NCBI RefSeq assembly: GCF_000307105.1
Contig: NC_018645.1
Span: forward strand, 1,996,578 to 2,060,577
From: Desulfobacula toluolica Tol2
GTDB lineage: Bacteria; Desulfobacterota; Desulfobacteria; Desulfobacterales; Desulfobacteraceae
Direction: 5' to 3'
DNA: 64,000 nucleotides
Both the position numbers and the translations under genes were made by a program. How positions within the stretch are numbered: the first letter of the stretch is position 1; every line of letters starts with the position of its first letter. Shown here piece after piece: positions 4,712 through 58,371 of the stretch. Under the pieces are notes generated by a model. That model searched no databases. It saw only the letters and a program-made list of their open reading frames with translations, and was not told where the DNA came from.

Positions 4712-4827
4712 TTTTTTATATGAAAGTTTTCAAAAATTCAAACAGCGACTTTCCTGTTTTGTTGTGGGTAGACCAAGTTGACCAGATTATTGTATAAAAA
4801 GGCCGGGTCTGCCCATAGCAGTTATTA
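4712..4827 (-). repeat. Structured intergenic repeat, copy R1
   Basis: Near-complete copy of the family described in Findings. Sense orientation (starting TAACTGC and ending in the GAAAGT arm) is on the minus strand. Stem 1 pairs GGGTAGACC with GGTCTGCCC with one G-T mismatch. Unlike most copies it lies between divergent genes, upstream of recD2, so no stop codon feeds into it. Confidence 0.8.
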
Positions 4828-4899
4828 ATATATTGAAAAAACCTTTTAGTTTAGTGTATCTAATGTCATTGTATGGATCTTGTCAAGGATTAGGATAAA

Positions 4900-7443
4900 A
4901 TGAGACAGCAGGCAGTCAACCAGGCGGTCAACCAGACAGGTGTTATCACTGAGATCATCAAAGGGATTGTTGATAGGGTTACCTTTCACAATCCTGATAA
5001 TGGATGGTCCATTCTCCGGGTATTGCCGTTTAATAATCCCCATGGACAGGAAACCGTTATTGTGCATCAAACAAAAGTATTTGCCGGTGCTACAATGGAA
5101 TTTGAAGGGTTCTGGACGATTCACCCCAAATATGGCCGCCAGTTTCAGGCAACAGTTGCCAGGGAAAAAAAACCTGCCACAGCTGCTGCATTGGAAAAAT
5201 ATCTGGGTTCAGGGTTGATAAAAGGTGTCGGACCCAAAACCGCTAAAAAAATTGTCATGTATTTTGACAGACAAACTCTTGATATCTTTGAAGAAAATAT
5301 AGAAAGACTCACTGAGGTTCCAGGCATTGCCCAAAAAAAACTGGATATGATCAGTCAGGCCTGGACAGAACACAAATCCATTAGGGAAGTGATGATGTTT
5401 CTACAGTCCCATGGCATCAGCACTTTGTTCGCGGTCAGGATCTATAAAAAGTACGGGGATGACGCAATAAAGATTGTTACTCAAGATCCTTACCGGCTGG
5501 CAAATGATTTTTACGGAATAGGTTTTTTTTCTGCAGACAAGGTGGCGTTGAGTATAGGGCTTGAACCTGACAGCCGGCAACGCATCATGGCCGGCATCAA
5601 GCATGCCCTGGCTGCAAGCAGGAATTTCGGGCATTGTTATTTGACGGCTTCCCAGATTGATGAGCAGGTTACAGCGTTACTGCAATTGGATCTGTCCCAT
5701 AAACTGATGGAGCTGTTGCAAGATATGGAAAAAGAAACGCTTCTCATGGTCAGGGATCTTGTTTTGGAAAACGGCACCAGTGAACGATGCTATTATTCGA
5801 AATCTTTGTATTTTGATGAACTCTATGTTGCAAAAAGAATTGTTGATATTGGAAATCCACCACAGGTTGAAAAGGCAAGGGTTGAGCGTTGGATATCTGT
5901 GTACTGTGAAGCAAAAGATATCTGTTTGAGCCATGAGCAGGCAGAGTCGGTTTGCGGTGTTGTGCGTGAAAAATTTTCAATTCTTACAGGCGGGCCAGGG
6001 TGTGGTAAGACCACTGCCACCCTTGTCATTGTTAAATTAATCGAAGCCATGGGGTTAAATGTTATTCTGGCAGCACCGACCGGCAGAGCGGCCCAAAGAA
6101 TGATGGATGTTATTGGAAAAGAGTCCAAAACAATCCACAGGCTGCTGGGATGGCAGGGCGGAAAATTTAAAAAAGATGAAAAAACACCGCTTAAAACAGA
6201 TTTTCTTATTGTTGATGAATGTTCAATGCTGGATATCAATTTGACGGCATCATTGCTCAAGGCTGTTCCTGAAACCGCTCAGATTTTGTTCATTGGAGAT
6301 TCCGACCAGTTGCCCTCAGTGGGTGCGGGAAATGTTTTAAAGGACATCATTTCATCAGGCAAGGTGCCGTGTTTTAAACTGACAAAAATATTTCGGCAGG
6401 CTCAATCGTCTTTGATCATCAAATATGCCCACCAGATCAATAAAGGTAAGATACCCTGGATTAAATCACCCTTTAAAAGTCCTGAAATCTGGCAGGATAC
6501 AAGCGATTGCCTGTTTCTTGATTCGGAGGAGGCAACCAAAGAGCAGATCAATTTTATTGCACGGGTGAAACATTTTTATGGGTTAACACCTCCTGAATTG
6601 GAAAACAACCTGTCCGATCTGTCCAATCAATCCAATTTGTCCGGGGAATCCGCTGATGCCGACTTGTTTGAGTTTCGTGTCCAAGAACCTGTGATTCCCT
6701 ATGAAACGGAAATAACCATCCCCAAAAAATTTGAGCATGTGGATCTGCAAAAAGTGTATGCAGCCCAAACCAGGAGTGAAGAACTGCTTATGGTTGTAAA
6801 AAAAGTTCATCCCTGGTCATCTCTGCATTACGGCATTTGTGCGGTTGATGTTGTTAAAAAGCTTTATCAGGAATGGATTCCCAAATATTATGGCAATTGT
6901 GAAATTCAGATCCTTTCTCCCATGACAAGAGGAAGCCTTGGGACAGTCAGTTTAAACAAACTGATTCAGGAAACTTCAAATCCATATGCTGAAGGCAAAC
7001 GGCAGTTAAAGGTTGGAGAAAGAATTTTTAGAGCAGGAGACCGGGTTATTCACCGGCGCAACAATTATGATCTGGGGGTTTTTAATGGTGATATTGGCGT
7101 TATCACAGAGATTGACAATGTTGATTTAACATGCACGGTTTCTTTTTATCCTGATAACCGGCAGGTTCATTACAGGCAAAATGATATTATGGAGCTTGAT
7201 CTGGCCTATGCCATAACCATACATAAATCCCAGGGCAGTGAATTTGAAATTGTTATTATCCCGATTGTGACACAGCATTTTAAAATGCTTTTTCGAAATT
7301 TGATTTATACAGGGATAACCAGGGCAAAAAAACTTGCCGTTTTTGTGGGTACGCGAAAAGCCCTGTCAATGGCTGTCAGAAATCATGATATCAGTCAAAG
7401 GCAAACAGCCTTGAAGCAATTGTTGATATCATTGAACCAGTGA
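4900..7443 (+). CDS. recD2: RecD2-like ATP-dependent DNA helicase
   Basis: The 847-aa protein is a superfamily 1B 5'-3' helicase. The N-terminal part (to ~340) has the RecD2 OB/HhH region (GSGLIKGVGPKTAKKIV, then a second HhH). Walker A GGPGCGKTT is at ~364-372, motif II DECSM follows, and the late motif TIHKSQGSEF and VGTRKALSMAV lie near the end. RecD2 acts without RecBC in replication-fork repair. A Ser/Asn/Leu-rich insert (DLSNQSNLSGESAD) at ~570-590 is low in complexity and unusual. The ATG has AGGAT upstream, and the repeated VNQ at the start suggests a small duplication. Confidence 0.95.
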   Translation: MRQQAVNQAVNQTGVITEIIKGIVDRVTFHNPDNGWSILRVLPFNNPHGQETVIVHQTKVFAGATMEFEGFWTIHPKYGRQFQATVAREKKPATAAALEKYLGSGLIKGVGPKTAKKIVMYFDRQTLDIFEENIERLTEVPGIAQKKLDMISQAWTEHKSIREVMMFLQSHGISTLFAVRIYKKYGDDAIKIVTQDPYRLANDFYGIGFFSADKVALSIGLEPDSRQRIMAGIKHALAASRNFGHCYLTASQIDEQVTALLQLDLSHKLMELLQDMEKETLLMVRDLVLENGTSERCYYSKSLYFDELYVAKRIVDIGNPPQVEKARVERWISVYCEAKDICLSHEQAESVCGVVREKFSILTGGPGCGKTTATLVIVKLIEAMGLNVILAAPTGRAAQRMMDVIGKESKTIHRLLGWQGGKFKKDEKTPLKTDFLIVDECSMLDINLTASLLKAVPETAQILFIGDSDQLPSVGAGNVLKDIISSGKVPCFKLTKIFRQAQSSLIIKYAHQINKGKIPWIKSPFKSPEIWQDTSDCLFLDSEEATKEQINFIARVKHFYGLTPPELENNLSDLSNQSNLSGESADADLFEFRVQEPVIPYETEITIPKKFEHVDLQKVYAAQTRSEELLMVVKKVHPWSSLHYGICAVDVVKKLYQEWIPKYYGNCEIQILSPMTRGSLGTVSLNKLIQETSNPYAEGKRQLKVGERIFRAGDRVIHRRNNYDLGVFNGDIGVITEIDNVDLTCTVSFYPDNRQVHYRQNDIMELDLAYAITIHKSQGSEFEIVIIPIVTQHFKMLFRNLIYTGITRAKKLAVFVGTRKALSMAVRNHDISQRQTALKQLLISLNQ

Positions 7444-7551
7444 TCTAACGCAGCCATTCCCCACCCATTATTGTGCTTTGATCAGATTGTCGTAGAGCAA
7501 AAGCTCCAGGTCTTTTTTTTTGATCCCAAAACTAAATCATGATTTAACGTT

Positions 7552-7863
7552 CTATTTGTTTTTCCAAATCGGGTAAAGGGTTTTTTTGTCGATGCCCACA
7601 TACATGTCTTTAAAATTTTTAGGTATGATCAGATCAGCTGTTTTTTCATCTTTTTTATCTGAATAGATCTTGTTACACTGGTTTCTGAGGTCTGAAAAAT
7701 CAGCTTTTTCAAGGAAATATATTAAAGCACTGATTTTCTTTTCAAGGGGCATTCTTTCATTGTCAGTATCAGATATTTTAAAGCATTGCCTGACCATACG
7801 CTCATACTCTCTTTTGGATGCTGTTTCTATGCAGTGATGAGTTAAATTTAAAGGTATTTCCAT
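7552..7863 (-). CDS. Hypothetical protein, 103 aa
   Basis: Not recognised. The protein is soluble, charged and helical, beginning with a Leu/His-containing strand and rich in Lys near the end. It lies 26 bp downstream of the gamma carbonic anhydrase on the same strand, so it is probably the last gene of that unit. No cysteine pair, membrane segment or catalytic motif was seen. Confidence 0.55.
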   Translation of the reverse strand: MEIPLNLTHHCIETASKREYERMVRQCFKISDTDNERMPLEKKISALIYFLEKADFSDLRNQCNKIYSDKKDEKTADLIIPKNFKDMYVGIDKKTLYPIWKNK

Positions 7864-7889
7864 TGTGATCTTTAAGTATTTAAGGGTAT

Positions 7890-8411
7890 TTAAAGTTTTT
7901 CAAATTTTTCAGGGTATTCTTTGGCAAGGTCAACGTAGAGCTGTTTTCCATATGTCCAGAAATCCTTATGTTTTTGTTTGACATCTCCAATGATTTTAAA
8001 AGGGACGCCACCGGTGATTTTTTCGTCGGGAATGATGTTTCCTTTGGGTATGAGAGACCCTTCAGCAACAATGGCCCATGATCCGATGACCACATCAAAT
8101 CCGATAATGGAGCCGATTCCTATTACGGCATGGGATTTTATGAGTTTACCGTGAATAATGGCCCCGTGCCCAACTGTAACACTTTCTTCCAGCTCAAGAA
8201 CACCGTTGGGCCTGATGTGGAGAGTGCAGTTTTCTTCTATGGCACTTCCTGATCCAATGATAATTTTACCATAATCTCCCCGGACAACAGCCCCATGACC
8301 GATATAACAATTGTCACCAATGGTGACATCACCAATGACCCTTGCGGAATCGCTTACATATGAGTTCTTTCCAATTTGGGGGATTCTGTCACCATATCTA
8401 TATAACGCCAT
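7890..8411 (-). CDS. Gamma-class carbonic anhydrase-like protein
   Basis: The 173-aa protein is built of left-handed beta-helix hexapeptides (GDVTIGDNCYIGHGAVVRGD, GSGSAIEENCTLH). Metal-ligand histidines are visible in NCTLHI and in GHGAIIH. This matches the YrdA/PaaY/CaiE group of short gamma-CA homologues, which bind Zn or Fe and may hydrate CO2 or act as thioesterase partners. It sits 15 bp downstream of a NifU-like gene. Actual carbonic anhydrase activity is inference. Confidence 0.88.
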   Translation of the reverse strand: MALYRYGDRIPQIGKNSYVSDSARVIGDVTIGDNCYIGHGAVVRGDYGKIIIGSGSAIEENCTLHIRPNGVLELEESVTVGHGAIIHGKLIKSHAVIGIGSIIGFDVVIGSWAIVAEGSLIPKGNIIPDEKITGGVPFKIIGDVKQKHKDFWTYGKQLYVDLAKEYPEKFEKL

Positions 8412-8426
8412 GTGGTCTCCCTGGTT

Positions 8427-8870
8427 TTATGTTAAATGTTTTTTTTGAAGGCTTGACATATAATTGCTTAATGCTTCCTGGACGGTTCTTGCCGCAAGTC
8501 CTGCACAATGCAAATCTTTTTCAGGCAGCCTGCCTATTGTCTCTAAAACCATGTCTGCGGTTATATCCGTTATCTCATCCGGGTCTTTTCCCAACGTCAG
8601 TTCTGCTGCAAAGGAACCGCTGACTCCGCTTGAAGCACACCCGTCCGTAAAATAGGACGCATTGCAAACCCTGTTGTTTTCAAACTTTAAATAGATTTCC
8701 ATGGTATCGCCGCATTCGCCTATTACCCTTGCCTGACCATCTGGATTCTCCATTCTTCCGTGAAATTTAGGGTTGCGCCACCGCTGGAATCCTTTTTCAC
8801 CAAGGGATTGCTTTGCTTCCTCAAATATTTCATTTTGAAGATTGTCTAAAAAATCATCTAAGCTACTCAT
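8427..8870 (-). CDS. IscU/NifU-like Fe-S cluster scaffold
   Basis: The 147-aa protein starts at MSSLDDFLDNLQ (ATG 8870). It has the three cluster-ligand positions of IscU/NifU-N proteins: ECGDTMEIY, DGCASSG and HCAGLAARTV. The region before the first Cys (NPKFHGRMENPDG) is also typical. It overlaps or abuts the FmdB-like gene upstream and shares spacing with the gamma-CA downstream. A paralogue lies at 12413-12811. These scaffolds are usually found next to ORP/MinD-type clusters in sulfate reducers. Confidence 0.88.
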   Translation of the reverse strand: MSSLDDFLDNLQNEIFEEAKQSLGEKGFQRWRNPKFHGRMENPDGQARVIGECGDTMEIYLKFENNRVCNASYFTDGCASSGVSGSFAAELTLGKDPDEITDITADMVLETIGRLPEKDLHCAGLAARTVQEALSNYMSSLQKKHLT

Positions 8871-8872
8871 GA

Positions 8873-9127: not shown

Positions 9128-9165
9128 TTGTCTCTCCTTTTTTAATGAATAAGCACGGGAAATAA

Positions 9166-9232
9166 AGAAAAGAAAAGCACCCTGGTCTTTGAATGGGCGG
9201 TTCTATGCTTTGGGTAGGTGCTTTTCTTTTCT
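9166..9232. terminator. Bidirectional hairpin between NifX-like and FmdB-like genes
   Basis: A perfect 16-bp inverted repeat, AGAAAAGAAAAGCACC (9166-9181) with its complement at 9217-9232, encloses a 35-nt loop. Both sides have T-rich tails. It lies just after the stop of the ORP-like operon (9247), so it most likely terminates that transcript. The long loop is unusual. Confidence 0.65.
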
Positions 9233-12984: not shown

Positions 12985-13275
12985 AATCCAGTACAGGGTT
13001 TCTGAATAATAATAACCGAATGGTTTTGGTTGTTTATGAAACACGATCGGAATAATAATTAATGGTGTTATTTTAAAATGTTGCGCAAATGCGACTTTTT
13101 ATCGGGGAAAAGGATCTGTTTAAACCATCTTGACTTAAGGAGTAAGTTTAAATAAAGATATAAATTTTGATATGAAATAATGTCTGATGTTGTCATTAAT
13201 CCTGAATTATCGTTGACACGGTGATTACGGTAAGTTACTTAATCAAGCTTTATTGGAATCAAATCTATTTCATTT

Positions 13276-13313
13276 TTTTGTTGTGGCAGGTCAGTCTGCT
13301 ATGGCATTTATTA
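13276..13313 (-). repeat. Structured intergenic repeat, partial copy R12
   Basis: Only the stem-1 half is present (TTGTTGTGGCAGG...CTATGGCATTTATT), sense on the minus strand. It is the only copy next to the mla operon. Confidence 0.6.
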
Positions 13314-23470: not shown

Positions 23471-23573
23471 TTTGATATGAAAGTCTTCAAAAAAAAATCA
23501 CACTGAGACTTTCAATGTTTGTTTGGGGCAAATCTTAAATAAAATCCAGGATTTGCCCTTGGCCGTTATTAAC
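23471..23573 (-). repeat. Structured intergenic repeat, copy R2
   Basis: Full copy, sense on the minus strand. It starts in the TAA stop of the citrate synthase gene (23569-23571). Stem 1 is perfect: GGGCAAATC with GATTTGCCC. Stem 2 has GAAAGTC with GACTTTC. It ends 27 bp before the next start. Confidence 0.9.
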
Positions 23574-24747
23574 GCTCATCCATATCCGTAAACAGACATT
23601 CATCCGGTCCGCAATAGTCCCCGATATATTCGGCTCCCGGCCTGTAAAGGGTTGGTTTAGGGGCTGCCATGGCAAATTGTTCTTCAATGACATGGGCTGA
23701 CCATCCACTGACTCTTGAAACCGCAAAAACAGGTGTGAAAAGATCCATGGCAATGCCTATGGCATGGAAAAACGAGGCACTGTAGAAATCTACATTACAA
23801 AAGATTTGTTTTTGTTTTTTTGCCTTAAAGGCATCCTTGCCTTTTTTTTCAAGCTCCCTTGAAAGTTCATACCACAGGGGTTGATTGGCAATCTGTCCCG
23901 TCCTTTGGCTCATGGGAGCAAGTATGATCGCCCTGGGGTCGTCTGTCTGGTAAACTGCATGACCCAGCCCCATGATAAGCCCGCCTGAATTTAAAATATT
24001 TTGAATATACCCGTCGATTTTATCAACAGAGCCTATCTGCTTTAACATTTCCATCACCCTGACATTGGCACCGCCGTGAAGAGAACCGGAAAGAGAACCT
24101 ATGGCAGCGGATATGGCAGCATAAATATGTGCCTTGGTGGATGCAACTTGTCGCGCTGTAAATGTTGAGGCATTAAAAGAGTGTTCTGCATGCAGCACAA
24201 GACTTGTATCAAAAAAACGGGCTGTTTCATCATCAGGTATCTCACCTTTGAGCATATATAGGAAATTTGCAGCATGGGATAAGTTGTTGTCCGGTGGAAT
24301 AATTTCTTGTTTATTTCTTATCCGGTCCCATGCAGCCGTAATAATTGCCAGTCCTGAAATAAGATTTTCCGCACTGTAAAGAGTGTTTTCAATTCCGGGC
24401 TTTCCGACAGTTATATCATTTTGAACCAACAATGGTGTGGCCATTTGAAGGACATCCATGGGGTTTGTGTCTGCTGGAAGTATTTTGAGAAAAGAAAAAA
24501 TATTTTCAGGAATGTTTCTTTTTTGTTTCAGGCTTTGCTGAAAGTCTTCTAACTCTGCTCTTTTGGGAAGCCTTTCGTACAACAAAAGAAAACAGACCTC
24601 TTCAAATGTTGCATTTTGGGCAAGATCTTCAATTAAAAATCCTCTATAGATCAGTTTTCCTTGTTTTCCCCGGACATCACAAATTTTTGAACTGGCCACG
24701 GCAACACCCCGAAGGCCAGTATTCATAACAGGCAAACATTCATCCAT
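23569..24747 (-). CDS. Citrate/2-methylcitrate synthase family protein
   Basis: The 392-aa protein has the citrate synthase catalytic residues: His in LHGGANVRVME, His in MGLGHAVYQTDDPRA and Asp in NVDFYSASFFH. The N-terminal GVAVASSKICDVRGKQGKLIYRG is usual for the shorter, dimeric class. Citrate and methylcitrate synthase cannot be separated by eye. AAGGAG precedes the ATG, 17 bp after the FTR-like gene, which is an odd operon partner. Confidence 0.92.
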   Translation of the reverse strand: MDECLPVMNTGLRGVAVASSKICDVRGKQGKLIYRGFLIEDLAQNATFEEVCFLLLYERLPKRAELEDFQQSLKQKRNIPENIFSFLKILPADTNPMDVLQMATPLLVQNDITVGKPGIENTLYSAENLISGLAIITAAWDRIRNKQEIIPPDNNLSHAANFLYMLKGEIPDDETARFFDTSLVLHAEHSFNASTFTARQVASTKAHIYAAISAAIGSLSGSLHGGANVRVMEMLKQIGSVDKIDGYIQNILNSGGLIMGLGHAVYQTDDPRAIILAPMSQRTGQIANQPLWYELSRELEKKGKDAFKAKKQKQIFCNVDFYSASFFHAIGIAMDLFTPVFAVSRVSGWSAHVIEEQFAMAAPKPTLYRPGAEYIGDYCGPDECLFTDMDER

Positions 24748-27914: not shown

Positions 27915-28162
27915 TGTTTCAAAAAATGGTGAGCCGGGATGGAAAATTAAAAAAATAAGGTCTTGAAAAAATATTTAAATTTCTGTTAGTATAAAAAATC
28001 AATTTTTTAAATCCAATTTTTTTTTATCATCACAGTCTTTGTTTAATATGGGACATAGTTGTATTGTCTGTTGTTGATAATTGATACGGTTGTTTGAGAC
28101 ATGACTGTTTCTTTTGTTTTTATTGACTGCCTTTTGTTTTTATCAGGCATAACGATTTGCTG

Positions 28163-28266
28163 AATAATTGCCACGGCAGACCTGGTTTTTTGTCTGGATT
28201 TTGCCACAACAAAACATAAATATCGCTGTTTGAATTTTTAAAGGCTTTATATGAAGGCTTTAAAAA
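28163..28266 (+). repeat. Structured intergenic repeat, copy R10
   Basis: Sense on plus strand: AATTGCCACGGCAGACCTGG, later TTGCCACAACAAAAC and a degenerate stem-2 region (AAGGCTTTATATGAAGGCTTT). No gene ends directly before it. It faces the partial copy R11. Confidence 0.75.
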
Positions 28267-28295
28267 TATATTGGAGTCAGATTTTTTTTGCTTTT

Positions 28296-28330
28296 TATTG
28301 TGGCAGCTTGTCTGTAATGGCAGTTTATAA
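28296..28330 (-). repeat. Structured intergenic repeat, partial copy R11
   Basis: Stem-1 half only (TTATTGTGGCAGC...GTAATGGCAGTTTA), sense on the minus strand, inverted with respect to R10 30 bp away. Confidence 0.6.
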
Positions 28331-29765: not shown

Positions 29766-30962
29766 TTAAGATAGTTTTTTCTTTAATTTTTTCGCTATTT
29801 TAATCCCCAGATCAAAACATCTGTTCAGATCATCTTCATTCGGAACATATTGAACTTTAACGCCCTCGTCAATAATATCCCACTTCATTTCAGAAAAATC
29901 CTTATTCAGTATTTTAACAGCTTCACCACTCCATCCGTAAGAACCAAATGCTGCTGCAATTTTATTCTGGGGCCGTAATCCTTTGACATATGTCATGACA
30001 TCTGCAATTACCGGGAAAATACCGTTGTTCAGTGTCGGAGAGCCCACGGCAATAGCTCCGGCATCAATAATTTCCGTCATGATATCACTTCTGTGCCATT
30101 TGCGTGTGTTCATAAGCCTTACACTCACATCTTTTGACTCAATCCCATTGGTAATGGACCTTGCCATTTTGGCGGTACTTTCCCACATGGAATCAAAAAT
30201 GACAACCACTTTTTTGGAAGGTTCCTGTCTGGACCATTTGTCATAAGCTTCAATGATTTTTGATGGATTTTCCCGCCAGATAATGCCGTGATCCGGACAG
30301 ATCATATTGATTTTCAGGTTCATTTTTGCAACATCTTTTAAAAGTGCCTGAACCCTTGGTGAAAAGTGAAGCAGAATATTGGCATAATACTTTTTTGCGT
30401 GGGACATGATCGCATCTCCAATTTGATCATCAAAGAACATGTCTCCGCTATAGTGTTGTCCAAAGGCATCACTTGAAAAAAGGATGGCATCCTCCACAAG
30501 ATATGTAAACATGCTGTCCGGCCAGTGAAGCATTCTTGTCTCAAGAAACGAAAATGTCCGGTTCCCTATTTTAAGTTCGTCGCCACTTCCCACAACCTGG
30601 AAATTAAAGTCGCGGTTAAAATGGCTTTTCAGGTTTTTCGCTCCCATTTTTGAACAATATAGCGGTTTGTTTTCTCCTATTTTATGCATCACTCTGGGGA
30701 TGGCTCCGGAATGATCCATTTCCGTATGATTGCTGATCAGTATATCAATTTTCTTTGGGTCAATAATCTGGCTGATATTGGAAAGCAGTTCGTCGCAAAA
30801 TTTTTCTTTTACAGTATCAATGAGAATATTTTTTTCACCCAGTACTAAAAATGCATTATAGGTTGTACCTTCATAGGTGGAGTAACCATGGAAATCCCGA
30901 ATATCCCAGTCCCGGCATCCGACAGAATAGATCCCATCCGCTATTTCAATGGGTTTATACAT
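29766..30962 (-). CDS. roo: Rubredoxin:oxygen oxidoreductase (A-type flavoprotein)
   Basis: The 398-aa flavodiiron protein has a metallo-beta-lactamase diiron domain with SNHTEMDHSGAIP and later CPDHG, then a flavodoxin domain with VVIFDSMWESTAKMA and FGSYGWSGEAVKIL. It reduces O2 to water (or NO) using rubredoxin. It follows the rubredoxin gene with repeat R3 in between, and precedes the ferritin-like gene. Confidence 0.95.
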   Translation of the reverse strand: MYKPIEIADGIYSVGCRDWDIRDFHGYSTYEGTTYNAFLVLGEKNILIDTVKEKFCDELLSNISQIIDPKKIDILISNHTEMDHSGAIPRVMHKIGENKPLYCSKMGAKNLKSHFNRDFNFQVVGSGDELKIGNRTFSFLETRMLHWPDSMFTYLVEDAILFSSDAFGQHYSGDMFFDDQIGDAIMSHAKKYYANILLHFSPRVQALLKDVAKMNLKINMICPDHGIIWRENPSKIIEAYDKWSRQEPSKKVVVIFDSMWESTAKMARSITNGIESKDVSVRLMNTRKWHRSDIMTEIIDAGAIAVGSPTLNNGIFPVIADVMTYVKGLRPQNKIAAAFGSYGWSGEAVKILNKDFSEMKWDIIDEGVKVQYVPNEDDLNRCFDLGIKIAKKLKKKLS

Positions 30963-30978: not shown

Positions 30979-31078
30979 TTTTTTATATGAAAGTCTTTAA
31001 AAATCTAAACAGTGACTTTCAAGCTTTGTTGTGGGCAAACATGGTTGAAAGACCAAGGCTGCCCGTGGCATTTATTGA
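30979..31078 (-). repeat. Structured intergenic repeat, copy R3
   Basis: Full copy, sense on minus strand, between rubredoxin (stop at 31082) and roo (start 30962, 16 bp beyond the repeat). Stem 2 is perfect (TGAAAGTC with GACTTTCA). Stem 1 is GGGCA with TGCCC. Confidence 0.9.
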
Positions 31079-31081
31079 ACT

Positions 31082-31240
31082 TTAATCTTTTTTCTTAAAA
31101 TTTTCTTTTGAAGCGCCGCAAAGGGGGCATACCCATTCTTCGGGCAGATTTTCAAAAGAAGTTCCAGGTTCAATTCCATTGTCAGGATCGCCGTTTGCCG
31201 GGTCATATACATATCCACAAACACATTGATATTTATCCAT
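31082..31240 (-). CDS. rub: Rubredoxin
   Basis: The 52-aa protein starts [19 protein letters not shown] (ATG 31240; GGAGGAGC upstream). Cysteines form the Fe(Cys)4 site as CVCG and CPLCGA. The first pair is C-x-C rather than the usual C-x-x-C, a one-residue shortening of the N-terminal knuckle. It is the natural electron donor for the Roo protein encoded next. Confidence 0.95.
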
Positions 31241-31330
31241 TGTTTTTTGCTCCTCCAAATAATAATCAATTAAAATCAGCTGCTGAATTATTTCAGCACT
31301 CTTAAGTGTCATCGTCTTATTGCAAAATAA

Positions 31331-34999: not shown

Positions 35000-35878
35000 A
35001 TGATTTTACCAAAGCCTGACAGAGAAAAAGCCTTATCAAACAGCGAAAAGCGGTATCGAAAACTTGTTGAAACCATGGGGCACGGCTTGACAGAAGTCGA
35101 TGAAAACCAGGTGGCTACATATGCCAACGAGATGCTCTGCCGGATGTGGGGACGCACGCAAAATGAGATCATAGGTTGGAAAGTTGATCAATTTCTAGAT
35201 GACGAGAATAAAAAAATTCTTTTTGCGCAGCATGAAAAACGCCAAAAAGGGGAAAGCCACCCCTATGAAATTGTGTGGACCAGAAAAGACGGGTCTAAAC
35301 TTCATGCCATTATGACCCCGACCCCTTATTTTGATGACAATGGTAAGTTTAAGGGCAGTTTTGCCATTGTTACCGATATTTCAAAGCATAAAAAAGAAAA
35401 GAATCTGCTGGAACTCAGGATTAAACAAAGAACCAGGGAGCTTGAAAATAAAACTAGAAACCTTGAAGAAGTGAATACTGCTTTACGGGTTCTGTTAAAG
35501 AAAAGAGAAGAAGATAAAACCGTGCTTGAAGAAAGAATGGTTTTAAATGTCAGGGAACTGATTATTCCCTATATTGAGCGAATGAGGGAAGACAATCTCA
35601 GTGACAGCCAGCAAGGGTGCCTGGATATCATGGAATCAACCCTGTATGATATTGTTTCCCCTTTTTTGCATAAATTTTCCCTGGAATTCTTAAATCTTAC
35701 TCCATCTGAAATTCAGGTGGCAAATATGGTTAAATACGGAAAGAAAACCAAGGAAATAGCTCAGATTTTAAATTTATCCGGAAAAACCGTTGAGTTTTAT
35801 CGCAAACGTATCAGGAAAAAAGTCGGCATTACCAATAAATCCATCAACCTTCAGACTTTTTTATCTTCCACTGAATAA
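35000..35878 (+). CDS. PAS domain - LuxR-type HTH regulator
   Basis: The 292-aa protein (ATG 35000, GGAAC upstream) has a PAS domain at ~15-130 (KRYRKLVETMGHGLTEVDEN), a coiled coil (RTRELENKTRNLEEVNTAL) and a C-terminal LuxR/GerE helix-turn-helix (LTPSEIQVANMVKYGKKTKE, then LSGKTVEFYRKRIRKK). It is a soluble sensor-regulator type that is very common in Desulfobacterales. Its stop codon is the first element of repeat R13. Confidence 0.9.
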   Translation: MILPKPDREKALSNSEKRYRKLVETMGHGLTEVDENQVATYANEMLCRMWGRTQNEIIGWKVDQFLDDENKKILFAQHEKRQKGESHPYEIVWTRKDGSKLHAIMTPTPYFDDNGKFKGSFAIVTDISKHKKEKNLLELRIKQRTRELENKTRNLEEVNTALRVLLKKREEDKTVLEERMVLNVRELIIPYIERMREDNLSDSQQGCLDIMESTLYDIVSPFLHKFSLEFLNLTPSEIQVANMVKYGKKTKEIAQILNLSGKTVEFYRKRIRKKVGITNKSINLQTFLSSTE

Positions 35879-35935
35879 CTGCCACAGACAGACCTGGTGT
35901 TTCCCACGGGTTTGTTCGCAATAAATAATTAAGGT
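35876..35935 (+). repeat. Structured intergenic repeat, partial copy R13
   Basis: Sense on plus strand, beginning in the TAA stop of the PAS-LuxR gene (35876-35878): TAACTGCCACAGACAGACC, then GGGTTTGTTCGCAATAAA. The stem-2 half is degraded. Confidence 0.7.
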
Positions 35936-36110
35936 CACTATTGAGGTTATCAAAATTTTATATGACCTGGTATATTTTATACCTGTTTTACCCCTGTTAT
36001 ATACCTCTTGTGTGATGATTTTTTTCAGTATAGTTATGTATCATTAGCTGTTGGCACTGATTTGTTGCAACTGGATCTGACCGTCTTAAAAAAAATGCCA
36101 AAAAAATATG

Positions 36111-41510: not shown

Positions 41511-41610
41511 TATAACTGCCACGGGCAGACCTGGGTTTTTGCTCATATTTGCCCACAACAAAAATTTAAAGTCTCTTTATGAATTTTTTAAGACTTTCAC
41601 ATAAAAGGAC
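41511..41610 (+). repeat. Structured intergenic repeat, copy R4
   Basis: Full copy, sense on plus: TAACTGCCACGGGCAGACC, ATTTGCCCACAACAAAAA, AAAGTC...GACTTTCA, ATAAAA. No plus-strand gene ends at it, so it is an exception to the stop-codon rule. Confidence 0.88.
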
Positions 41611-41640
41611 TTTTAACCTGTTGAAATCAGATCTCTTTAA

Positions 41641-41696
41641 GGTTGTGTTGCGGGTAAATTTCAAATAAAATGCCAGGTTTGCCCATGGCTGTTATA
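41641..41696 (-). repeat. Structured intergenic repeat, partial copy R5
   Basis: Stem-1 half, sense on minus: CTATAACAGCCATGGGCAAA, with GGGTAAATT as the partner arm. It faces R4. Confidence 0.7.
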
Positions 41697-41844: not shown

Positions 41845-43458
41845 TTAAGCTTTTACCTTTGTAGCTTTTTTTGCCTTTGATTTGGCTTTTTTCTGGGCTT
41901 TTGCCGGAGTCTTCTTTTTTTTCGGTGTTGCTTTGATTGCTTTTTCTTCAAGGTCGTTTATCTTTTTTTCATAATCTTCCCGGATTTTTTTGATCTCGTC
42001 CTGAAGTTCCGATTCCCTGGTGTCAGCTTTTTCCTTTGCCGTCAGGATGGATTTTTCCACCTGAGTTTCAATTTCTTTTTGGTACGTCTCTTCCATATTT
42101 TGTTTGGTCTGGTCAAACTCTTTTGTGAGTTTGTCATTTTTGCTTAAAAGTTGTGTCTGTGTTTCTGTGAGTTCTGCAATTGTGTTGTTAAGATTTTTTT
42201 CAAGGATATCCCAGGCAGTCTGTTTTTCTGTATATTTACGATTTAACTTTTCCGAAATTTCTGCCATTTTTCCCTGGTATGTTAGTTCAAGGTCTTTAAT
42301 ACTTTTTTTGTGGTCTGCCTCAGCTTCACTTGCAGCGGCAGTGAGTTCTTTTTCTCTGTCAGTCAAGGCTATCAATTGATTTTGATGCTTTACCTCAAGT
42401 TCTTTTATATTTTTTTGATGCTTTGCTTCAAGTTCTTCTATGGCTTTCTGGTATTTTGTCTCAAGTTCTTCTGCGGTTTTTTTGTTTCTGATATCGGCCT
42501 CACTTGCAGTGGTTGTGAGTTTCTCTATTTTTATGTTCAAGGCTTGCAATTTGTTTTGATGATTTGTTTCAAGGTCTTCAATGATTTTTTTGTGGCTAAT
42601 ATCAGCTTCATTTGCAGCGGCAGTGAGTTCTTTTTCTCTGTCAGTCAAGGCTATCAATTGATTTTGATGCTTTACTTCAAGTTTTTCTATGGCTTGTTGA
42701 TGTTTTGTCTCAAGCTCTTCTGTGTTTTTCCGGTTAAGAATATCAGCTTCTTTTGTCGCGGCAGCAACCATTTCTTCTGTTTTTTTGTTTAGATCTTCAA
42801 TCTCTTTTTTATTTTTGGCTTCAAGATCGGCAATAATTTTATTGTGATGCTCTTCAACTTCCTTGGCTGCATCAGTCATCTCTTTTATTTTGGAATTCAA
42901 GGAGTCAATTTGTGTTTTCTGTTTTGAATTGAGGTCTGCAATGGCTTGTTTATTCTTTGATTCCGCTTCTTCTGCAATGCGGATCATTTCTTCTATTTTG
43001 CTTTTCAGTAACGAGTTTTCAGCTTCAAGTTTTTTTGTTACTTCACCTATGCTCAGTGCTTTTTGCCTGGGAAGTGAAAAAAGCTGACCTTCCAGCCTGG
43101 CCTGCCTTCTGAGTTGTCTTCTGGATTCAATTACCGGTTTAATGTTCCTGATTAAAACTTTTGAAATACCTTTAAGACAGTGCCATAACACTCCCATATC
43201 CTGGACGGTTAATAATTTTCGTGTTTCAGCATCCGGGTCTTCAGCCCGGGTGATTAAATTTTCCAAAACCAGTTGAAGCCGGTTTAATTCTGCACGAACC
43301 AGATGTTTGTCTTCACTTACATCCAGAGTGTTTTCACAACAAAAAGCATGCAGGATGGAATGGAACTGTTCATGATCCAGTCCTGATTTTACAGCTATTT
43401 GTTCAAACTGTGCTTTGATTTTTTTAATACTATCAGTGGATATTGCTTCTGAAGCCAT
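41845..43458 (-). CDS. Long coiled-coil protein with histone H1-like tail
   Basis: The 537-aa protein has a compact N-terminal ~130 residues, then a coiled coil to ~500 built of repeats such as KHQNQLIALTDREKELTAAA, which recurs with a period of 94 residues. It ends in a Lys/Ala/Pro tail (ATPKKKKTPAKAQKKAKSK...), like histone H1 or AlgP-type tails. No membrane or signal segment is seen. It could link a scaffold to DNA or a polyanion; function unknown. At DNA level, 77 bp at 42323 and 42605 are nearly identical, so the repeat is recent. Confidence 0.8.
   Translation of the reverse strand: MASEAISTDSIKKIKAQFEQIAVKSGLDHEQFHSILHAFCCENTLDVSEDKHLVRAELNRLQLVLENLITRAEDPDAETRKLLTVQDMGVLWHCLKGISKVLIRNIKPVIESRRQLRRQARLEGQLFSLPRQKALSIGEVTKKLEAENSLLKSKIEEMIRIAEEAESKNKQAIADLNSKQKTQIDSLNSKIKEMTDAAKEVEEHHNKIIADLEAKNKKEIEDLNKKTEEMVAAATKEADILNRKNTEELETKHQQAIEKLEVKHQNQLIALTDREKELTAAANEADISHKKIIEDLETNHQNKLQALNIKIEKLTTTASEADIRNKKTAEELETKYQKAIEELEAKHQKNIKELEVKHQNQLIALTDREKELTAAASEAEADHKKSIKDLELTYQGKMAEISEKLNRKYTEKQTAWDILEKNLNNTIAELTETQTQLLSKNDKLTKEFDQTKQNMEETYQKEIETQVEKSILTAKEKADTRESELQDEIKKIREDYEKKINDLEEKAIKATPKKKKTPAKAQKKAKSKAKKATKVKA
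42323..42681. repeat. Tandem internal duplication, 282-bp period
   Basis: The 77-bp blocks at 42323-42399 and 42605-42681 differ at only about two positions. The period is 282 bp (94 codons), and the duplication stays in frame within the coiled-coil gene. Confidence 0.85.
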
Positions 43459-52553: not shown

Positions 52554-52696
52554 GGTTGTTTCCTCCTCTCTCAGATAAAATTTGGTAAAATTTAATACAA
52601 GAAGCCAGGAAGAAAAAAGTATTTTGTCTAAAAGACAATCTGTCTGGCGGTTATAATCAATTTTTATAATAAAATCCCGACAAATTCAATCTTGAT

Positions 52697-52768
52697 TTTT
52701 AATTTTTGTTGTGGGCAAACCAGGACGCAATATCAGAATGCAATACCAGGTTTGCCCGTAGCAGTTAC
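52697..52768 (-). repeat. Structured intergenic repeat, copy R6
   Basis: Sense on minus, starting in the rubredoxin stop (52765-52767). Stem 1 is perfect: GGGCAAACC with GGTTTGCCC. The stem-2 half is degraded. It supports the compensatory change relative to R2. Confidence 0.85.
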
Positions 52769-52923
52769 TCTTTTGAAAAATCTTCTTTCCCGGCACCGCA
52801 AATAGGGCAGACCCAGTCTTCGGGAAGCTCTTCAAACGTTGTTCCAGGATCAATACCGTTATCGGGATCTCCGTCTGCCGGATCATACACATAACCGCAA
52901 AGGTCACATACATACCTGTCCAT
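52765..52923 (-). CDS. rub: Rubredoxin, second copy
   Basis: The 52-aa protein (ATG 52923) reads [20 protein letters not shown] and has the second pair VCPICGAG. Here the first knuckle is the standard C-x-x-C, unlike the rubredoxin at 31082. GAGAATG-type spacing precedes the start. It lies 59 bp after cydB, so it probably delivers electrons in the same oxygen-defence unit. Confidence 0.95.
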
Positions 52924-54011: not shown

Positions 54012-54030
54012 ATTTAAACTCCTGTAATGT

Positions 54031-54122
54031 TTTGATATAAAAGTTTTAGCAAACCAAATCGCAACTTTCATTATTTGTTGTGGCAGATTCGGGTCAAATA
54101 CCCAGTATGCCCTTGGCAGTTA
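54031..54122 (-). repeat. Structured intergenic repeat, copy R7
   Basis: Sense on minus, starting in the cydA stop (54120-54122) and ending 20 bp before the cydB ATG. Stem 1 has drifted to GGCA/TGCC with an inner GGGT/ACCC pairing. Stem 2 is AAAGTT with AACTTT. Confidence 0.8.
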
Positions 54123-55433
54123 TTTGGTTGCAGCGGCCTCAGGGCCTTGTTTGGCATATTTGCTGATCAGATAAAAGCCCAGGGCCCCTAACATGCCATA
54201 GACGACAATAAAACCGATCAGGGAAAACAGAACCTGGTTTCCGGCAATTGGGGATACGGCATCTGATGTTTTAAGAACTCCATAAACTATCCAGGGCTGT
54301 CTGCCGACCTCTGAAACCACCCATCCCATTTCTATGGCAATATAGGGCAAGGGAATGGAAAACAGCATCCATTTCAGATATGTGGGGCTTTCCATGAGCT
54401 TGTCTCTTTTGAACCATCCGTAAATGGTCAGCAGGATCAACAGTGTGCCGATTCCCACCATTGTTCTGAATCCGATAAAAGTGGGCAGAACCGGCGGACG
54501 TTCATCTTTGGGAATGTCTTTGAGTCCGATAACGGTTGCATTAAAATCATGAAATCCTAAAAAGCTCAGGATGCCGGGGATTGAGCCAATCTCAATCAGA
54601 TTTTTTTCCCGGCTTTCATCGGGTATGGCAAACAGAACAATGGGTGCCCGGGTCTGGGTTTCCCAGTGGGATTCCATGGCAGCCAGCTTGGCGGGTTGGG
54701 TTTTAGCAACGTTGACACCGTGAAAATCGCCAACCAAAGCCACTATGATTGAAGATGCAAGGCCAACAAAGAGAGCGATTTTGAAAGAACGGGTGAAAAG
54801 ATCGATTTCCTGCTTTTTAAGCAGGTGATAGGCAGAAATTCCCATAATGAAAAACGAGCTGACCAGAAGGCCGGAAGGAAGAACATGTAAAATTTCAAGA
54901 ATGCCGTGATAATTAAAAAGAACAGCAAAAAAATCAGTCAGTTCTGCTCTTCCGTTTCTGATGGTATAGCCAACCGGATTTTGCATGAATCCATTGGCCG
55001 TCAGTATCCATATGCCGGATAGGTTACCTGCTGCTGCAACAACCCACATAACGCCTGCATGGGCTTTGGCTGACATTTTTTTCCAGCCGAAAATCCAGAT
55101 GCCTATGAATGTGGATTCAAGAAAAAATGCAACAGATGCCTCAATGGCTAAAAGTGAGCCAAATACATCTCCCACATACTCGGAATATCTTGACCAGTTG
55201 GTTCCAAACTGGAACTCAAGGGTGATGCCTGTGACAACACCTAAGGCAAAATTAATTAAAAAAAGTTTGCCCCAGAATTTTGTCATTCTCAAATAGACCT
55301 CTTCCCCGGTTCTTGCATACTTTGTTTCCATGTAGGCAATTATAACTGAAATTCCAAGGGTCAGGGGTACAAAAAGAAAATGGAACATGGTTGCTGCGGC
55401 AAATTGTAATCTTGATAGAAAAACCGGGTCCAT
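54120..55433 (-). CDS. cydA: Cytochrome bd oxidase subunit I
   Basis: The 437-aa protein starts at MDPVFLSRLQFAAATMFHFLF (ATG 55433; GGAGGA upstream). The haem b595/d ligand His is in FHFLFVPLTLG, and HVLPSGLLVSSFF carries another. It is the short-Q-loop form common in anaerobes. A sigma-54 promoter lies 70 bp upstream. Confidence 0.95.
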   Translation of the reverse strand: MDPVFLSRLQFAAATMFHFLFVPLTLGISVIIAYMETKYARTGEEVYLRMTKFWGKLFLINFALGVVTGITLEFQFGTNWSRYSEYVGDVFGSLLAIEASVAFFLESTFIGIWIFGWKKMSAKAHAGVMWVVAAAGNLSGIWILTANGFMQNPVGYTIRNGRAELTDFFAVLFNYHGILEILHVLPSGLLVSSFFIMGISAYHLLKKQEIDLFTRSFKIALFVGLASSIIVALVGDFHGVNVAKTQPAKLAAMESHWETQTRAPIVLFAIPDESREKNLIEIGSIPGILSFLGFHDFNATVIGLKDIPKDERPPVLPTFIGFRTMVGIGTLLILLTIYGWFKRDKLMESPTYLKWMLFSIPLPYIAIEMGWVVSEVGRQPWIVYGVLKTSDAVSPIAGNQVLFSLIGFIVVYGMLGALGFYLISKYAKQGPEAAATK

Positions 55434-55499
55434 ACATTCCTCCAATTAATAGTTGTTTTGATTTGTTTAAAAAGCTTTTTTTATGTTTTTTCAAAAAAT

Positions 55500-55515
55500 A
55501 GCAAATAATATGCCA
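55500..55515 (-). promoter_or_regulatory. Sigma-54 promoter (P7) of cydAB unit
   Basis: The minus strand reads TGGCAT-ATTAT-TTGCT, correct spacing, 67-82 bp upstream of the cydA ATG. Confidence 0.75.
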
Positions 55516-55766
55516 TACAAGAAAAACGAGGTTGAAATAAAATGTTTAAAAGATGAATATCAGAACATTAAATGATTTTCAGGCTTATGGCAAGGGCGTT
55601 TTAGATTATTGGATCAATTTTGTAGTTATCTTGGTTTCAGAGTGTCCCATAGTAAAAATTCAATCAAATCCGTATCAGGAAAGCAAGGGATTTGAAACAA
55701 TAGTGTGTCGGCTGTTTTTTTTGAGACATAAGTAATTTGTATGCAATAAAGTTATGAATGTATAAC

Positions 55767-55846
55767 TTTTTATATGAAAGTCTTGAAAAATTCAAGCGGC
55801 AATTTTTATGTTTTGTTGTGGCAGGCAATTTGTCAAGGCTGTTACT
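55767..55846 (-). repeat. Structured intergenic repeat, copy R8
   Basis: Sense on minus. Stem 1 is reduced (GGCAGG...). The GAAAGTC arm is intact, but its partner has drifted, with an inner CTTGAA/TTCAAG pairing. No gene stop is adjacent. Confidence 0.75.
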
Positions 55847-55879
55847 GCGTATTGTCAGGGAGGATGAGGGGGTTGGTTT

Positions 55880-55917
55880 AAGACGGCGGCAGGAATAGAG
55901 ATTCCTGCCGCCGTCTT
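55880..55917. terminator. Strong hairpin terminator
   Basis: AAGACGGCGGCAGGAAT and its exact complement enclose AGAG, a 17-bp perfect stem immediately after the cytochrome b stop. A T run follows on the plus strand; on the minus strand it is short. Confidence 0.8.
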
Positions 55918-55918
55918 T

Positions 55919-56563
55919 TTATTTCTTTCGGGTGGCCTGGGTTTCCCAGTCGGCAATTTTTGTGGTCTCGTAAATCTCTTCCCATCCTGTTATCATACCT
56001 GCTATATGGCTGAAAATCGAATGGCCAGTGGTTGTCATATAAACATGAATGATTAAAAAATTTAATAGAAAAAGTGCAACCAACATGTGCATAACGGCCA
56101 GAATTTCCAGGGAAAGGGCACCTGACAGATCATTATACAGATAGTATAGTAATCCTGTTATCATCTGTACCGGCAGCAGCAGGGCGGAGATTCCCAGATA
56201 TGCCAGCCGCTGCAGCGGGTTATGCTTTGCCCCTTTTGATTTTTGAACCGGATGGGGTTTTCCCTGAAAAATATCCCAGGCATAGTACCGGATGACCAGA
56301 AAAAGTCTTTTGGTTGTGGGAAGATATTGCTTCCATTCTCCTGTTGTCAGAAGCCAGAAAACAAAAAAGGCAAACATGATCAGCCAGGACAGGCCCGTAA
56401 AATTATGGACATTGACGGCTGTCTGAAAACCCATTAACTGGTATGTGCCGTGAATTTCAAGACCGGTAATAATCAGGCAGATGATCATCAGTGCCTGGAG
56501 CCAGTGCCACAACCGTTCAAACCGTGTGTAAAGATAAATTTTGATGATTTTTTTATCCGCCAT
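55919..56563 (-). CDS. Di-haem cytochrome b, four membrane segments
   Basis: The 214-aa protein has four hydrophobic helices and histidines in the b561/HupC pattern: YTRFERLWHWLQALM, VNVHNFTGLSW, and VMHMLVALFLLNFLIIHVYMTTTGHS. It links a periplasmic electron carrier to the quinone pool. It starts right after the octahaem cytochrome gene, so the two probably form one membrane complex. Confidence 0.9.
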   Translation of the reverse strand: MADKKIIKIYLYTRFERLWHWLQALMIICLIITGLEIHGTYQLMGFQTAVNVHNFTGLSWLIMFAFFVFWLLTTGEWKQYLPTTKRLFLVIRYYAWDIFQGKPHPVQKSKGAKHNPLQRLAYLGISALLLPVQMITGLLYYLYNDLSGALSLEILAVMHMLVALFLLNFLIIHVYMTTTGHSIFSHIAGMITGWEEIYETTKIADWETQATRKK

Positions 56564-58195
56564 TTAATCCTCCTTGCCGTTGCGTGTGAAAAACCGTCCC
56601 AGTCCATGGAGCAATACACCTGCCAAGGCGCCAAAAACGGAAATCCAGCCAATTGCATCAAAAAGATCGGATTTGTTTCGTCCCGGCAGATACAATCCTG
56701 TAATATTGGCAAGTCTGGAATCTTTTCTGGCATGGCATTGGGTGCAGTTTAATGCATTTTCTTTTGGTGCCACCATATGGGTGATGGGAAACGCATATGT
56801 GGTTTCCACATAATCAAATTCTCCGGAATAGGGAATGCCGATGGCTTTGTTGCCGTGTTCAATTGCATCATTCATGTCAAAGGTAGTCCAATATCCGTTT
56901 TTGCCTGAGAGCATAGGGGCCAGCATTTTTTTGTGGATTTTATCGTAGGGTTGCTTTCCCCTGTGGATTTTAAATGGAAAAATACGGGCTTCGGGATCAT
57001 TTTTATCCCCCACCGGGTGGCTCACCTTTACGATTTGAGCCGGATCAATGATGTCATTGGCCGTGGTGCTGGTCAAAGAGCCGTTGAACCAGAAATATTC
57101 AGGCACTACATTTTTTTCCCATTTGAATTCGCCTTTAATGGATTTGTAAATCGCTTTTCCAAAAGGGCCTTTTTCCTCATAGGGTTTGCCGTCTTTAATT
57201 TTTCCAGCCTTGGACCAGTCCCACCACATCTTTGTTGGATTCACCCTTGCAAATGTTGGAATATGGCATGCCTGACAGGAAACTACATCTGTATGGTCAT
57301 TCATTTTTGAATCGTTTTTATGAGGTTCGCTGCTATGGCAGGAGACACAGGTTATTTTGGGTGCCAGATCATCTTCGATAAGGCTTTTTCTTGTTTCAAC
57401 GGCAGGGTTTGTATAGATCCGTCCGGCAATATGGTGGTCCACTGTTGTGTGGCACCTGGTGCAGGAAAAATCTTTACCGTCAACGCCCATATGTACATCC
57501 AGCATACGGTTGGGCTTGGTCAGGGAGGTGTCAAGGTCTCCATGCTTTACCCCGTCTCCGCCGCCGCCGGTAAAATGGCAGCTGCCGCAATTTTTTCGTG
57601 TGGGAAGCGTTACCTGGGTGGTTGCCTCTTTAACTTCCTGCTGAATGTCTTTTGCTATTTCTTGGGTTTCAGGATCATTGTCTTCTGAAAATGCCTTGAT
57701 GTCTGAAAAAGCTTCTGTAAAATCAAATCCAGATGAATTATGGCATTTCAGGCAGTTGACCTCACCTTTTATTCCTTTTTTATTCCAGCTGGGATGGCAT
57801 TTCAGACAGCCTTTATCTTCCATGGCATTGCCTGAAATACAAAAATTATTGACTGAGTACCCGGCCTTGCCGTAGCGTATATCGTTCTTGTCTTCCGACG
57901 CAAGCCATGACCAGTGAATGGATTTGTGAAACTGGGTTGCAGCTTCGGAATGACAGGACAAGCAGGCTTGAGTGATTTCTTCTCCAGTTGTGAAATCTTT
58001 GTTTAAAGCTTTGATTTTTTTATGGTCAATCGTACTCCACCTTTTACTGCCTTTAACCGCCTGTCTGGCCAGTTTTCTTCCTAATGCCTCTTCACCGCTT
58101 TGGGGTGGTGATGCAATTGCGGTTTGAAAGGAGTAAAGGAAAGTTATCGTTGCAATAAAAGCCAGGCAGCGCTTTATTAAATACCGGTTTTTCAT
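56564..58195 (-). CDS. Octahaem cytochrome c, membrane-anchored (OTR-like)
   Basis: The 543-aa protein starts at MKNRYLIKRCLAFIATITF (ATG 58195; GGAG upstream). It has a signal peptide (cleaved near TAIA), eight CXXCH motifs (CLSCH, CLKCH twice, CGSCH, CTRCH, CVSCH, CQACH, CTQCH) and a C-terminal membrane helix (WISVFGALAGVLLHGLG). Layout is closest to octahaem tetrathionate-reductase-like cytochromes, but the active-site haem with a Lys ligand is not seen. It is encoded with a cytochrome b. Confidence 0.9.
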   Translation of the reverse strand: MKNRYLIKRCLAFIATITFLYSFQTAIASPPQSGEEALGRKLARQAVKGSKRWSTIDHKKIKALNKDFTTGEEITQACLSCHSEAATQFHKSIHWSWLASEDKNDIRYGKAGYSVNNFCISGNAMEDKGCLKCHPSWNKKGIKGEVNCLKCHNSSGFDFTEAFSDIKAFSEDNDPETQEIAKDIQQEVKEATTQVTLPTRKNCGSCHFTGGGGDGVKHGDLDTSLTKPNRMLDVHMGVDGKDFSCTRCHTTVDHHIAGRIYTNPAVETRKSLIEDDLAPKITCVSCHSSEPHKNDSKMNDHTDVVSCQACHIPTFARVNPTKMWWDWSKAGKIKDGKPYEEKGPFGKAIYKSIKGEFKWEKNVVPEYFWFNGSLTSTTANDIIDPAQIVKVSHPVGDKNDPEARIFPFKIHRGKQPYDKIHKKMLAPMLSGKNGYWTTFDMNDAIEHGNKAIGIPYSGEFDYVETTYAFPITHMVAPKENALNCTQCHARKDSRLANITGLYLPGRNKSDLFDAIGWISVFGALAGVLLHGLGRFFTRNGKED

Positions 58196-58272
58196 TGGCA
58201 GCTCCATGAATTTTTAAACTTTTTTTGTAATAATAGGGGCGGGATAAAATCACCACCCTTTCTTGTTATTTC

Positions 58273-58371
58273 TTTTTTTATATGAAAGTCTTCAAAAATT
58301 CAAACAGTGACTTTCAATTTTTGTTGTGGGCAAACCAAAGTAAAAAATACCAAGTCTGCCCATGGCATTTA
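58273..58371 (-). repeat. Structured intergenic repeat, copy R9
   Basis: Full copy, sense on minus, starting in the TAA stop of the haemless cytochrome-like gene (58369-58371). Stem 2 is perfect (TGAAAGTC with GACTTTCA). Stem 1 is GGGCAAACC with AGTCTGCCC. Confidence 0.9.

Follow-up and report, generated by a model that had tools for sequence, protein, structure and literature searches.

A target-specific mobile repeat with two unlike hairpins and no gene of its own in Desulfobacula toluolica Tol2 and other Desulfobacteraceae

Why does one structured repeat recur in the gaps between genes, and so often at stop codons, along a 64,000-nt stretch of the Desulfobacula toluolica Tol2 genome (the window; NC_018645.1, positions 1,996,578-2,060,577, on one contig of 5,197,905 bp)? 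A preliminary description of this DNA offered two answers: an intercistronic RNA element acting in stability, processing or attenuation, or a mobile repeat that targets gene ends. Our results leave very little doubt that the copies are insertions of a gene-less, target-specific mobile element; empty sites in related genomes, near-identical recent copies and a fixed target together support the second answer. The element is probably non-autonomous and moved in trans as single-stranded DNA, with an HUH transposase as the most likely enzyme; the HUH step taken by itself we put at slightly under an even chance. An origin in host RNA function is not supported, although individual copies may later have been put to use by the host.

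All 13 copies placed in the window by the preliminary description were confirmed. A covariance model (model R1) was trained on 12 of the 13, with R5 (28296) left out, and its recovery of 12 copies at 30-105 bits, R5 being missed, is partly by construction since the copies are the training set. The copies are listed below with the strand on which conserved G.U pairs form (the G.U strand); types A and B differ in their hairpins, as set out further on.

R1, 4714..4826, plus strand: type A with a long 3' hairpin loop, between divergent genes; 93.1 bits.
R2, 13235..13312, plus strand: the 3' hairpin is the short one of subfamily B and the 5' half is degenerate; 30.1 bits.
R3, 23471..23570, plus strand: type A, abutting the stop of a citrate-synthase-family gene (23569-24747, minus strand) with a 2-bp overlap; 84.8 bits.
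R4, 28162..28255, minus strand: type A; 80.6 bits.
R5, 28270..28329, plus strand: subfamily B, inverted beside R4; missed by model R1.
R6, 30981..31076, plus strand: type A, with a rubredoxin gene (31082-31312) on one side and a flavodiiron-type gene (29766-30962) on the other; 101 bits.
R7, 35874..35965, minus strand: divergent type A whose TAA serves as the stop of a PAS/LuxR-type regulator gene (35000-35878); 64.1 bits.
R8, 41511..41606, minus strand: type A; 97.2 bits.
R9, 41600..41696, plus strand: head to head with R8, with a long 3' hairpin and, by eye, a subfamily-B-like 5' half; 54.9 bits.
R10, 52662..52769, plus strand: type A; a rubredoxin gene (52765-52923) stops at its TAA; 78.9 bits.
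R11, 54031..54124, plus strand: type A, in the gap between cydA and cydB; cydA stops at its TAA; 75.9 bits.
R12, 55768..55846, plus strand: type A with most of the 3' hairpin gone; 58.2 bits.
R13, 58276..58373, plus strand: near-consensus type A, its TAA being the stop of a small Pfam-less gene (58369-58719); 105.4 bits.

Comparison with congeners showed that these sites can be empty. The joined flanks of R3, R6, R7, R10, R11 and R13 were aligned with 26 congener genomes, an alignment being counted as spanning when it covered at least 20 nt on either side of the joint. The element was absent in all 56 spanning alignments (R3, 20/20; R6, 8/8; R7, 10/10; R11, 9/9; R13, 9/9), where the length differed by -14 to +33 nt, for an element that measures 92-100 bp, and a realigned subset of the loci displays the joints. 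The left flank of R10 was too divergent to give a spanning alignment. Model R1 run over 31 congener loci returned nothing above 25.1 bits; at the R3 site, genome G048 holds about 80 nt of unrelated sequence. Within the genomes sampled, the insertions at R3, R6, R7, R11 and R13 are confined to the lineage of the window.

Recent activity is apparent in G028, a genome of a sister genus, where 40 of 41 matches were 98-100% identical over 93-95 nt and only the outermost bases varied (40 of 102 candidates were scored). Three of these copies are inserted in another repeat, a miniature inverted-repeat transposable element (MITE) that bears terminal inverted repeats; the same MITE occurs unfilled in G028, G027, G012, G013 and G026, and the unfilled site reads GATCGGAATAAAACC. 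Unfilled orthologous sites in sister species could be aligned for all four further G028 loci tested, and a second query gave spanning unfilled counterparts for 5 of 14 joins (two reach only 9 and 17 nt on one side); one locus appears to be filled in G027 too.

The filled sites share one target, ATAA, or TTTAT followed by W (A or T) on the other strand, with TTAT left at both ends. Among copies in named genomes the left edge reads TTTAT in 60-65 of 66, depending on the position. On the right side, where the search pattern itself prescribed GTTAT, TTAT is followed by A or T in 63 of 65. The left edge carries T runs of 1-9, and when filled and unfilled sites were compared, 1-3 extra Ts were found there in eight cases and none in two.

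The element itself spans about 82-113 bp and holds no open gene of its own. Read on the G.U strand, it consists, after the flanking TTTAT, of ATGAAAG (5' hairpin), TTTGTTGTG (3' hairpin, with a wobble-paired foot) and CRTGGCMG, followed by TTAT and W; its edges, ATAACTGCC... and ...CATATAAA, are not terminal inverted repeats. In type A the two hairpins are TTTTATATGAAAGTC-loop-GACTTTCA and TTTGTTGTGGGC-loop-GCCCRTGGCAGTTAT. Subfamily B, of about 82 nt, has the same ends as type A with a different 5' hairpin and a short 3' hairpin; its 5' half was clear, counted by eye, in 16 of 25 pattern matches from own-genome stretches, and its short 3' hairpin is carried by R2 and R5. R9 seems, by eye, to fuse a subfamily B 5' half to a long 3' hairpin, and tandem arrangements of the two types, joined at a common TTAT with 2, 3 or 4 Ts at the junction, are frequent. 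Wobble pairs make up the UUG/UGG foot in the majority of copies in most lineages, A-U, G-C or C-G pairs being rare there; on the strand that the preliminary description had read as sense (the complementary strand below), the wobble pairs would become C.A mismatches. The conserved lower-stem G.U pairs thus lie on the strand opposite to the supposed sense strand.

The placement at stop codons was examined in a context set of 133 own-genome copies, with 33 of the 150 copies listed by the genome search left out and genes predicted by our own dicodon scoring. Only one copy lay within a called gene. Where both neighbors share a direction, they run along the complementary strand at 49 copies and opposite to it at 27; 31 copies are flanked by divergent and 19 by convergent genes, and the remaining 6 have a flank lacking a called gene. 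The edge TAA was a stop codon in 28-29 of the 133. With copies masked, the same stretches held 1263 [AT]ATAAA sites, 22 of them at stops, 421 intergenic and 820 coding, so that stops make up 5.0% of non-coding targets (22/443); among copies their share is about 22% (p about 4e-8, odds 5.4). In the window the edge TAA is a stop codon at R7, R10, R11 and R13, R3 abuts a stop and R6 lies 5 bp off. This makes five copies at or next to a stop, in agreement with the preliminary description if its numbering follows the stems it quoted (R2 being the copy at 23471 and R6 that at 52697) and not the order of its list. The ATAA target together with the loss of insertions inside genes yields much of this placement; target choice and purifying selection account for its kind but only in part for its degree.

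Do the hairpins reflect a function of the RNA, as the preliminary description proposed? A cross-lineage set held 57 distinct sequences drawn from about 30 genomes; pairing holds in 89.8% of its cells, and double changes occur at 15 of 23 pairs against 7.3 in shuffles (99 cells against 39.6) and in both stems; the covariation score is 0.248, with 0.114 for shuffled and at most 0.090 for slid versions. The 124 distinct sequences of the own genome gave a weaker signal (56 cells against 24.2; score 0.149 against 0.115); these alignments were all fitted to the model, and the shuffles ignore relatedness. Single copies out-fold most shuffles on either strand, and six copies folded on the supposed sense strand had folding energy z scores of -1.8 to -3.7. 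The two stems and their compensatory variants, reported earlier, exist. Decay after insertion tells a different story: single transitions in own-genome Watson-Crick pairs led to G.U in 99 cells and to A.C in 99; a further 155 cells were broken in other ways, and 48 showed Watson-Crick double changes. Two columns of shared variants pull in opposite directions (32:2 and 6:24), and leaving both out gives a G.U:A.C ratio of 61:73. The cross-lineage ratio is 38:22 (p = 0.05). Because G.U and A.C are equal within the genome, inserted copies give no sign of selection for RNA pairing: lineages preserve the structure on the G.U strand, and individual inserted copies drift. The compensatory changes are real but distinguish element lineages, and such compensation is equally expected if only copies still able to fold get mobilized.

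An intergenic RNA element kept by the host for mRNA stability, processing or attenuation is very improbable. It could draw on the cross-lineage covariation, the folding energies and the excess at stop codons over available targets, and REPs (repetitive extragenic palindromic sequences), which resemble the repeat, can act on mRNA (PMC6006769). The equal decay to G.U and A.C within the genome speaks against it, as do the 56 of 56 empty congener alignments, which include the cydA-cydB gap at R11. At stop-codon copies, moreover, the G.U strand runs antisense to the genes, and copies occur in all gene arrangements.

How, then, might a mobile repeat of this form move? A transposase acting in trans would recognize two folded ends on one exposed DNA strand; the enzyme would most likely be of the HUH class, an IS200/IS605-type or REP-type Y1 protein, and the G.T-rich foot would let it distinguish the two strands. 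Stem covariation would arise from selection for copies still movable. The element multiplies in bursts, decays once inserted and stays out of gene interiors, so that insertions at an A-TAA stop, where the stop is preserved, are common. TnpA-REP requires conserved stem mismatches and acts on one strand only (PMC8266576), so the wobble foot could plausibly mark the strand. Y1 genes are found in 69 of the 86 family genomes, and in 19 of 19 genomes that are at least 90% complete and have at least 5 repeat matches compared with 27 of 35 others (p = 0.04). IS200-type copies in G029 (three) and G023 (two) carry TTTAT at their left boundary, so enzymes with a TTTAT target exist within the family.

The orientation of the copies relative to replication is a hint in the same direction. 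The G+C skew at third codon positions, for genes of both directions, flips sign near 2.4 Mb, and full rRNA genes lie on the plus strand at 2.31 Mb and the minus strand at 3.73 Mb, which puts the terminus close to the 2.4-Mb point. In 95 of the 150 copies (p = 0.0014) the G.U strand is leading-strand sequence, and thus lies in the lagging-strand template; IS608 and ISDra2 target the lagging-strand template (PMC6006769), and this bias hints at single-strand mobilization. In G028, rRNA directions and short G+C samples did not fix the replichores.

Several findings count against this overall reading. Three repeat-bearing genomes gave no Y1 match (G001 and G015, both incomplete, and G021, 97% complete). 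The element's ends were found in none of the 50 Y1 stretches examined, which are part of all Y1 matches, nor in four IS91 types; within an 8-kb stretch around this genome's RAYT-like gene (RAYT, REP-associated tyrosine transposase), no copy lay within about 3.4 kb. No tetranucleotide guide fits on the G.U strand, where a single nucleotide separates TTTAT from the 5' hairpin, and inspection by eye showed none on the other strand. Either strand is compatible with insertion 3' of a fixed target, and ATAA as the target would make the complementary strand the active one, contrary to the replication hint. That bias is itself weak in the context set (79/133) and not significant within classes (stop class, 25/38; rest, 54/95), and dnaA (G000:C1:2661437-2662789, at 2.66 Mb) lies near the inferred terminus and away from the inferred origin. 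The 0-3 extra Ts at the left edge of filled sites are left unexplained, TTAT at both ends could be either matched cleavage sites or a true 4-bp duplication, and placement at stop codons is about fourfold above target availability, so that target and selection predict it incompletely. On the structure itself, RNAalifold with an unaided MAFFT alignment of ten copies, in the orientation of the preliminary description, gave only four pairs and no double changes; the covariation emerges once the two-stem structure is specified and the alignment is fitted to it, and not otherwise.

Some of these points would suit a double-stranded mover, a MITE lacking terminal inverted repeats for which another transposase or recombinase duplicates a fixed TTAT, the hairpins being duplex sites or of minor importance. 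Intact copies are flanked by TTAT at both ends, tandem junctions with their varying Ts resemble a T-rich target duplication, and no HUH partner with matching ends was found. A target duplication normally varies in sequence, however, whereas TTAT is nearly constant; the one-strand wobble pairs speak for folded single strands, as do the double changes in both stems, and terminal inverted repeats are lacking. We regard this explanation as possible, if rather unlikely. Insertion through an RNA intermediate, in which the complementary strand ends in a short A run (CATATAAAA) and reverse transcription is primed on the T-rich target, has only a very slim chance of being right. It would make sense of the left-edge T runs and of the extra Ts in 8 of 10 comparisons (two further loci were ambiguous), but slippage in T runs could give the same extra Ts, both edges are precise, and no burst of 5'-truncated copies appears among the 40 in G028.

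The candidates for a mobilizing enzyme or parent element that were followed up were rejected. A TGAAAGTC/GACTTTCA hairpin upstream of IS200 tnpA genes (L136-L140) was a candidate for the left end of the element, but it covers the ribosome-binding site of tnpA and lies inside the insertion sequence (IS), whose own end hairpins are unlike it, and it resembles the repeat's 5' stem by chance. A Y1 match adjoining the element at L034 proved to be a broken IS200-type gene and not a RAYT, and in G027 a Y1 gene has one degenerate copy (47.9 bits) nearby; neither copy forms an IS end, as far as seen. IS91/Y2 genes are present in 54 of the 86 genomes with ends unlike those of the repeat. The window's genome has nine near-identical full IS91-type genes (for example at 2366781, 2377744, 2435489 and 3619228), several of them clustered at 2.37-2.44 Mb, near the inferred terminus. 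An autonomous version was sought among the pattern matches without a 5' half (16 of 82); none of the seven inspected had a transposase between the halves. The R-box pattern of integron attC sites does not appear to fit.

Among known systems, the repeat belongs with REP-, PATE- and MITE-like elements, as a variant of that kind. REPs, with their BIME (bacterial interspersed mosaic element) and REPIN arrangements and RAYT (TnpA-REP) enzymes, are likewise high-copy intergenic hairpins with foot features marking one strand. They are single hairpins of 20-40 bp with a GTAG/GGAG or CGTC foot, usually beside a RAYT gene, whereas the repeat has about 82-113 bp, two unlike hairpins and no such foot, and no adjoining RAYT was found. 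PATEs (palindrome-associated transposable elements) are defined (PMC7290912) as ends-only derivatives of IS200/IS605 that have end hairpins, lack terminal inverted repeats and insert next to one fixed sequence of four or five nucleotides. The repeat is PATE-like in having a hairpin at each end, no terminal inverted repeats and insertion 3' of a fixed tetra- or pentanucleotide; it differs in that no parent IS with these ends was found, there is no canonical 5' guide and TTAT stands at both ends. MITEs of the Correia, RUP, ERIC and BOX type are also non-autonomous intergenic high-copy repeats of about 100 bp. Most have terminal inverted repeats, which the repeat lacks, and a target duplicated by a DDE parent, of which the repeat shows no clear sign. 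We consider it fairly unlikely, though worth stating, that the family has its own mode of moving, with an enzyme that is neither a known IS200/IS605 protein nor a RAYT and stop codons favored beyond target supply. That proposal would cover a family spread through the Desulfobacteraceae with two unlike hairpins, a conserved tandem G.T foot, insertion at TTTAT/W and TTAT at both ends, often with 1-3 extra Ts; if true, it would mean a gene-less mobile family with its own movement mechanism in this group.

The covariance-model search suggested by the preliminary description showed a wide distribution. In the Tol2 genome, model R1 found at least 150 copies at 65.9-110.6 bits; all 150 scored candidates matched, and they were 150 of 7204 first-look candidates, so the copy number is a lower bound. 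Four additional copies of at least 64 bits in the flanks of these matches suggest a total somewhat above 200. The window is a dense patch, with 8 of the 150 listed matches in 1.2% of the genome, a density to which the training of the model on window copies contributes. In the family search (E up to 1e-5, at most the best 48 candidates scored per genome), matches were found in 41 of 86 genomes, the own genome included, and in 9 of 14 genera. A pattern scan of named genomes gave at least 120 stretches. The 80 listed loci belong to Desulfobacteraceae or Desulfobacterales records, including Desulfocicer vacuolatum DSM 3385 and Desulfobacter latus, together with a "Deltaproteobacteria" metagenome-assembled genome (MAG), one Pseudodesulfovibrio MAG and one Streptosporangiaceae MAG, whose match (L300) lacks a 5' half and was taken as chance. 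The viral contigs and plasmids searched gave no repeat match, an Rfam scan of the window gave none at the gathering score, and Rfam on the loci of three relatives (E up to 5) gave only a match of E = 1.2 outside the element. We found no account of this repeat in the open-access literature; a 2025 paper on the Desulfobacteraceae describes many mobile elements (PMC11887813).

The repeat is a main non-coding repeat source in a group of bacteria that are central to marine sulfur and carbon cycling, and its covarying stems let it be mistaken for a regulatory RNA. Setting cross-lineage covariation against symmetric decay to G.U and A.C offers a simple test between a constraint from mobility and a host RNA function, and stop-preserving insertion is a route by which a mobile element can settle cheaply in operons.

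Genes near the window copies encode rubredoxin, flavodiiron-type, citrate-synthase-family and CydA/CydB proteins, and genes with rubredoxin-type domains adjoin three copies (23471-23570, 30981-31076 and 52662-52769). The gene at 41845-43458 contains direct repeats with 141- and 282-bp spacing (42272-42770). The TIR-bearing MITE that hosts three G028 copies is about 170 bp long, ends in TTAGGCCCATGATC / GATTATGGGCCTTA with an apparent TA duplication, and is common in the sister genus, where it was found in G028, G027, G012, G013, G018 and G026 (for example at L086, L100 and L109).

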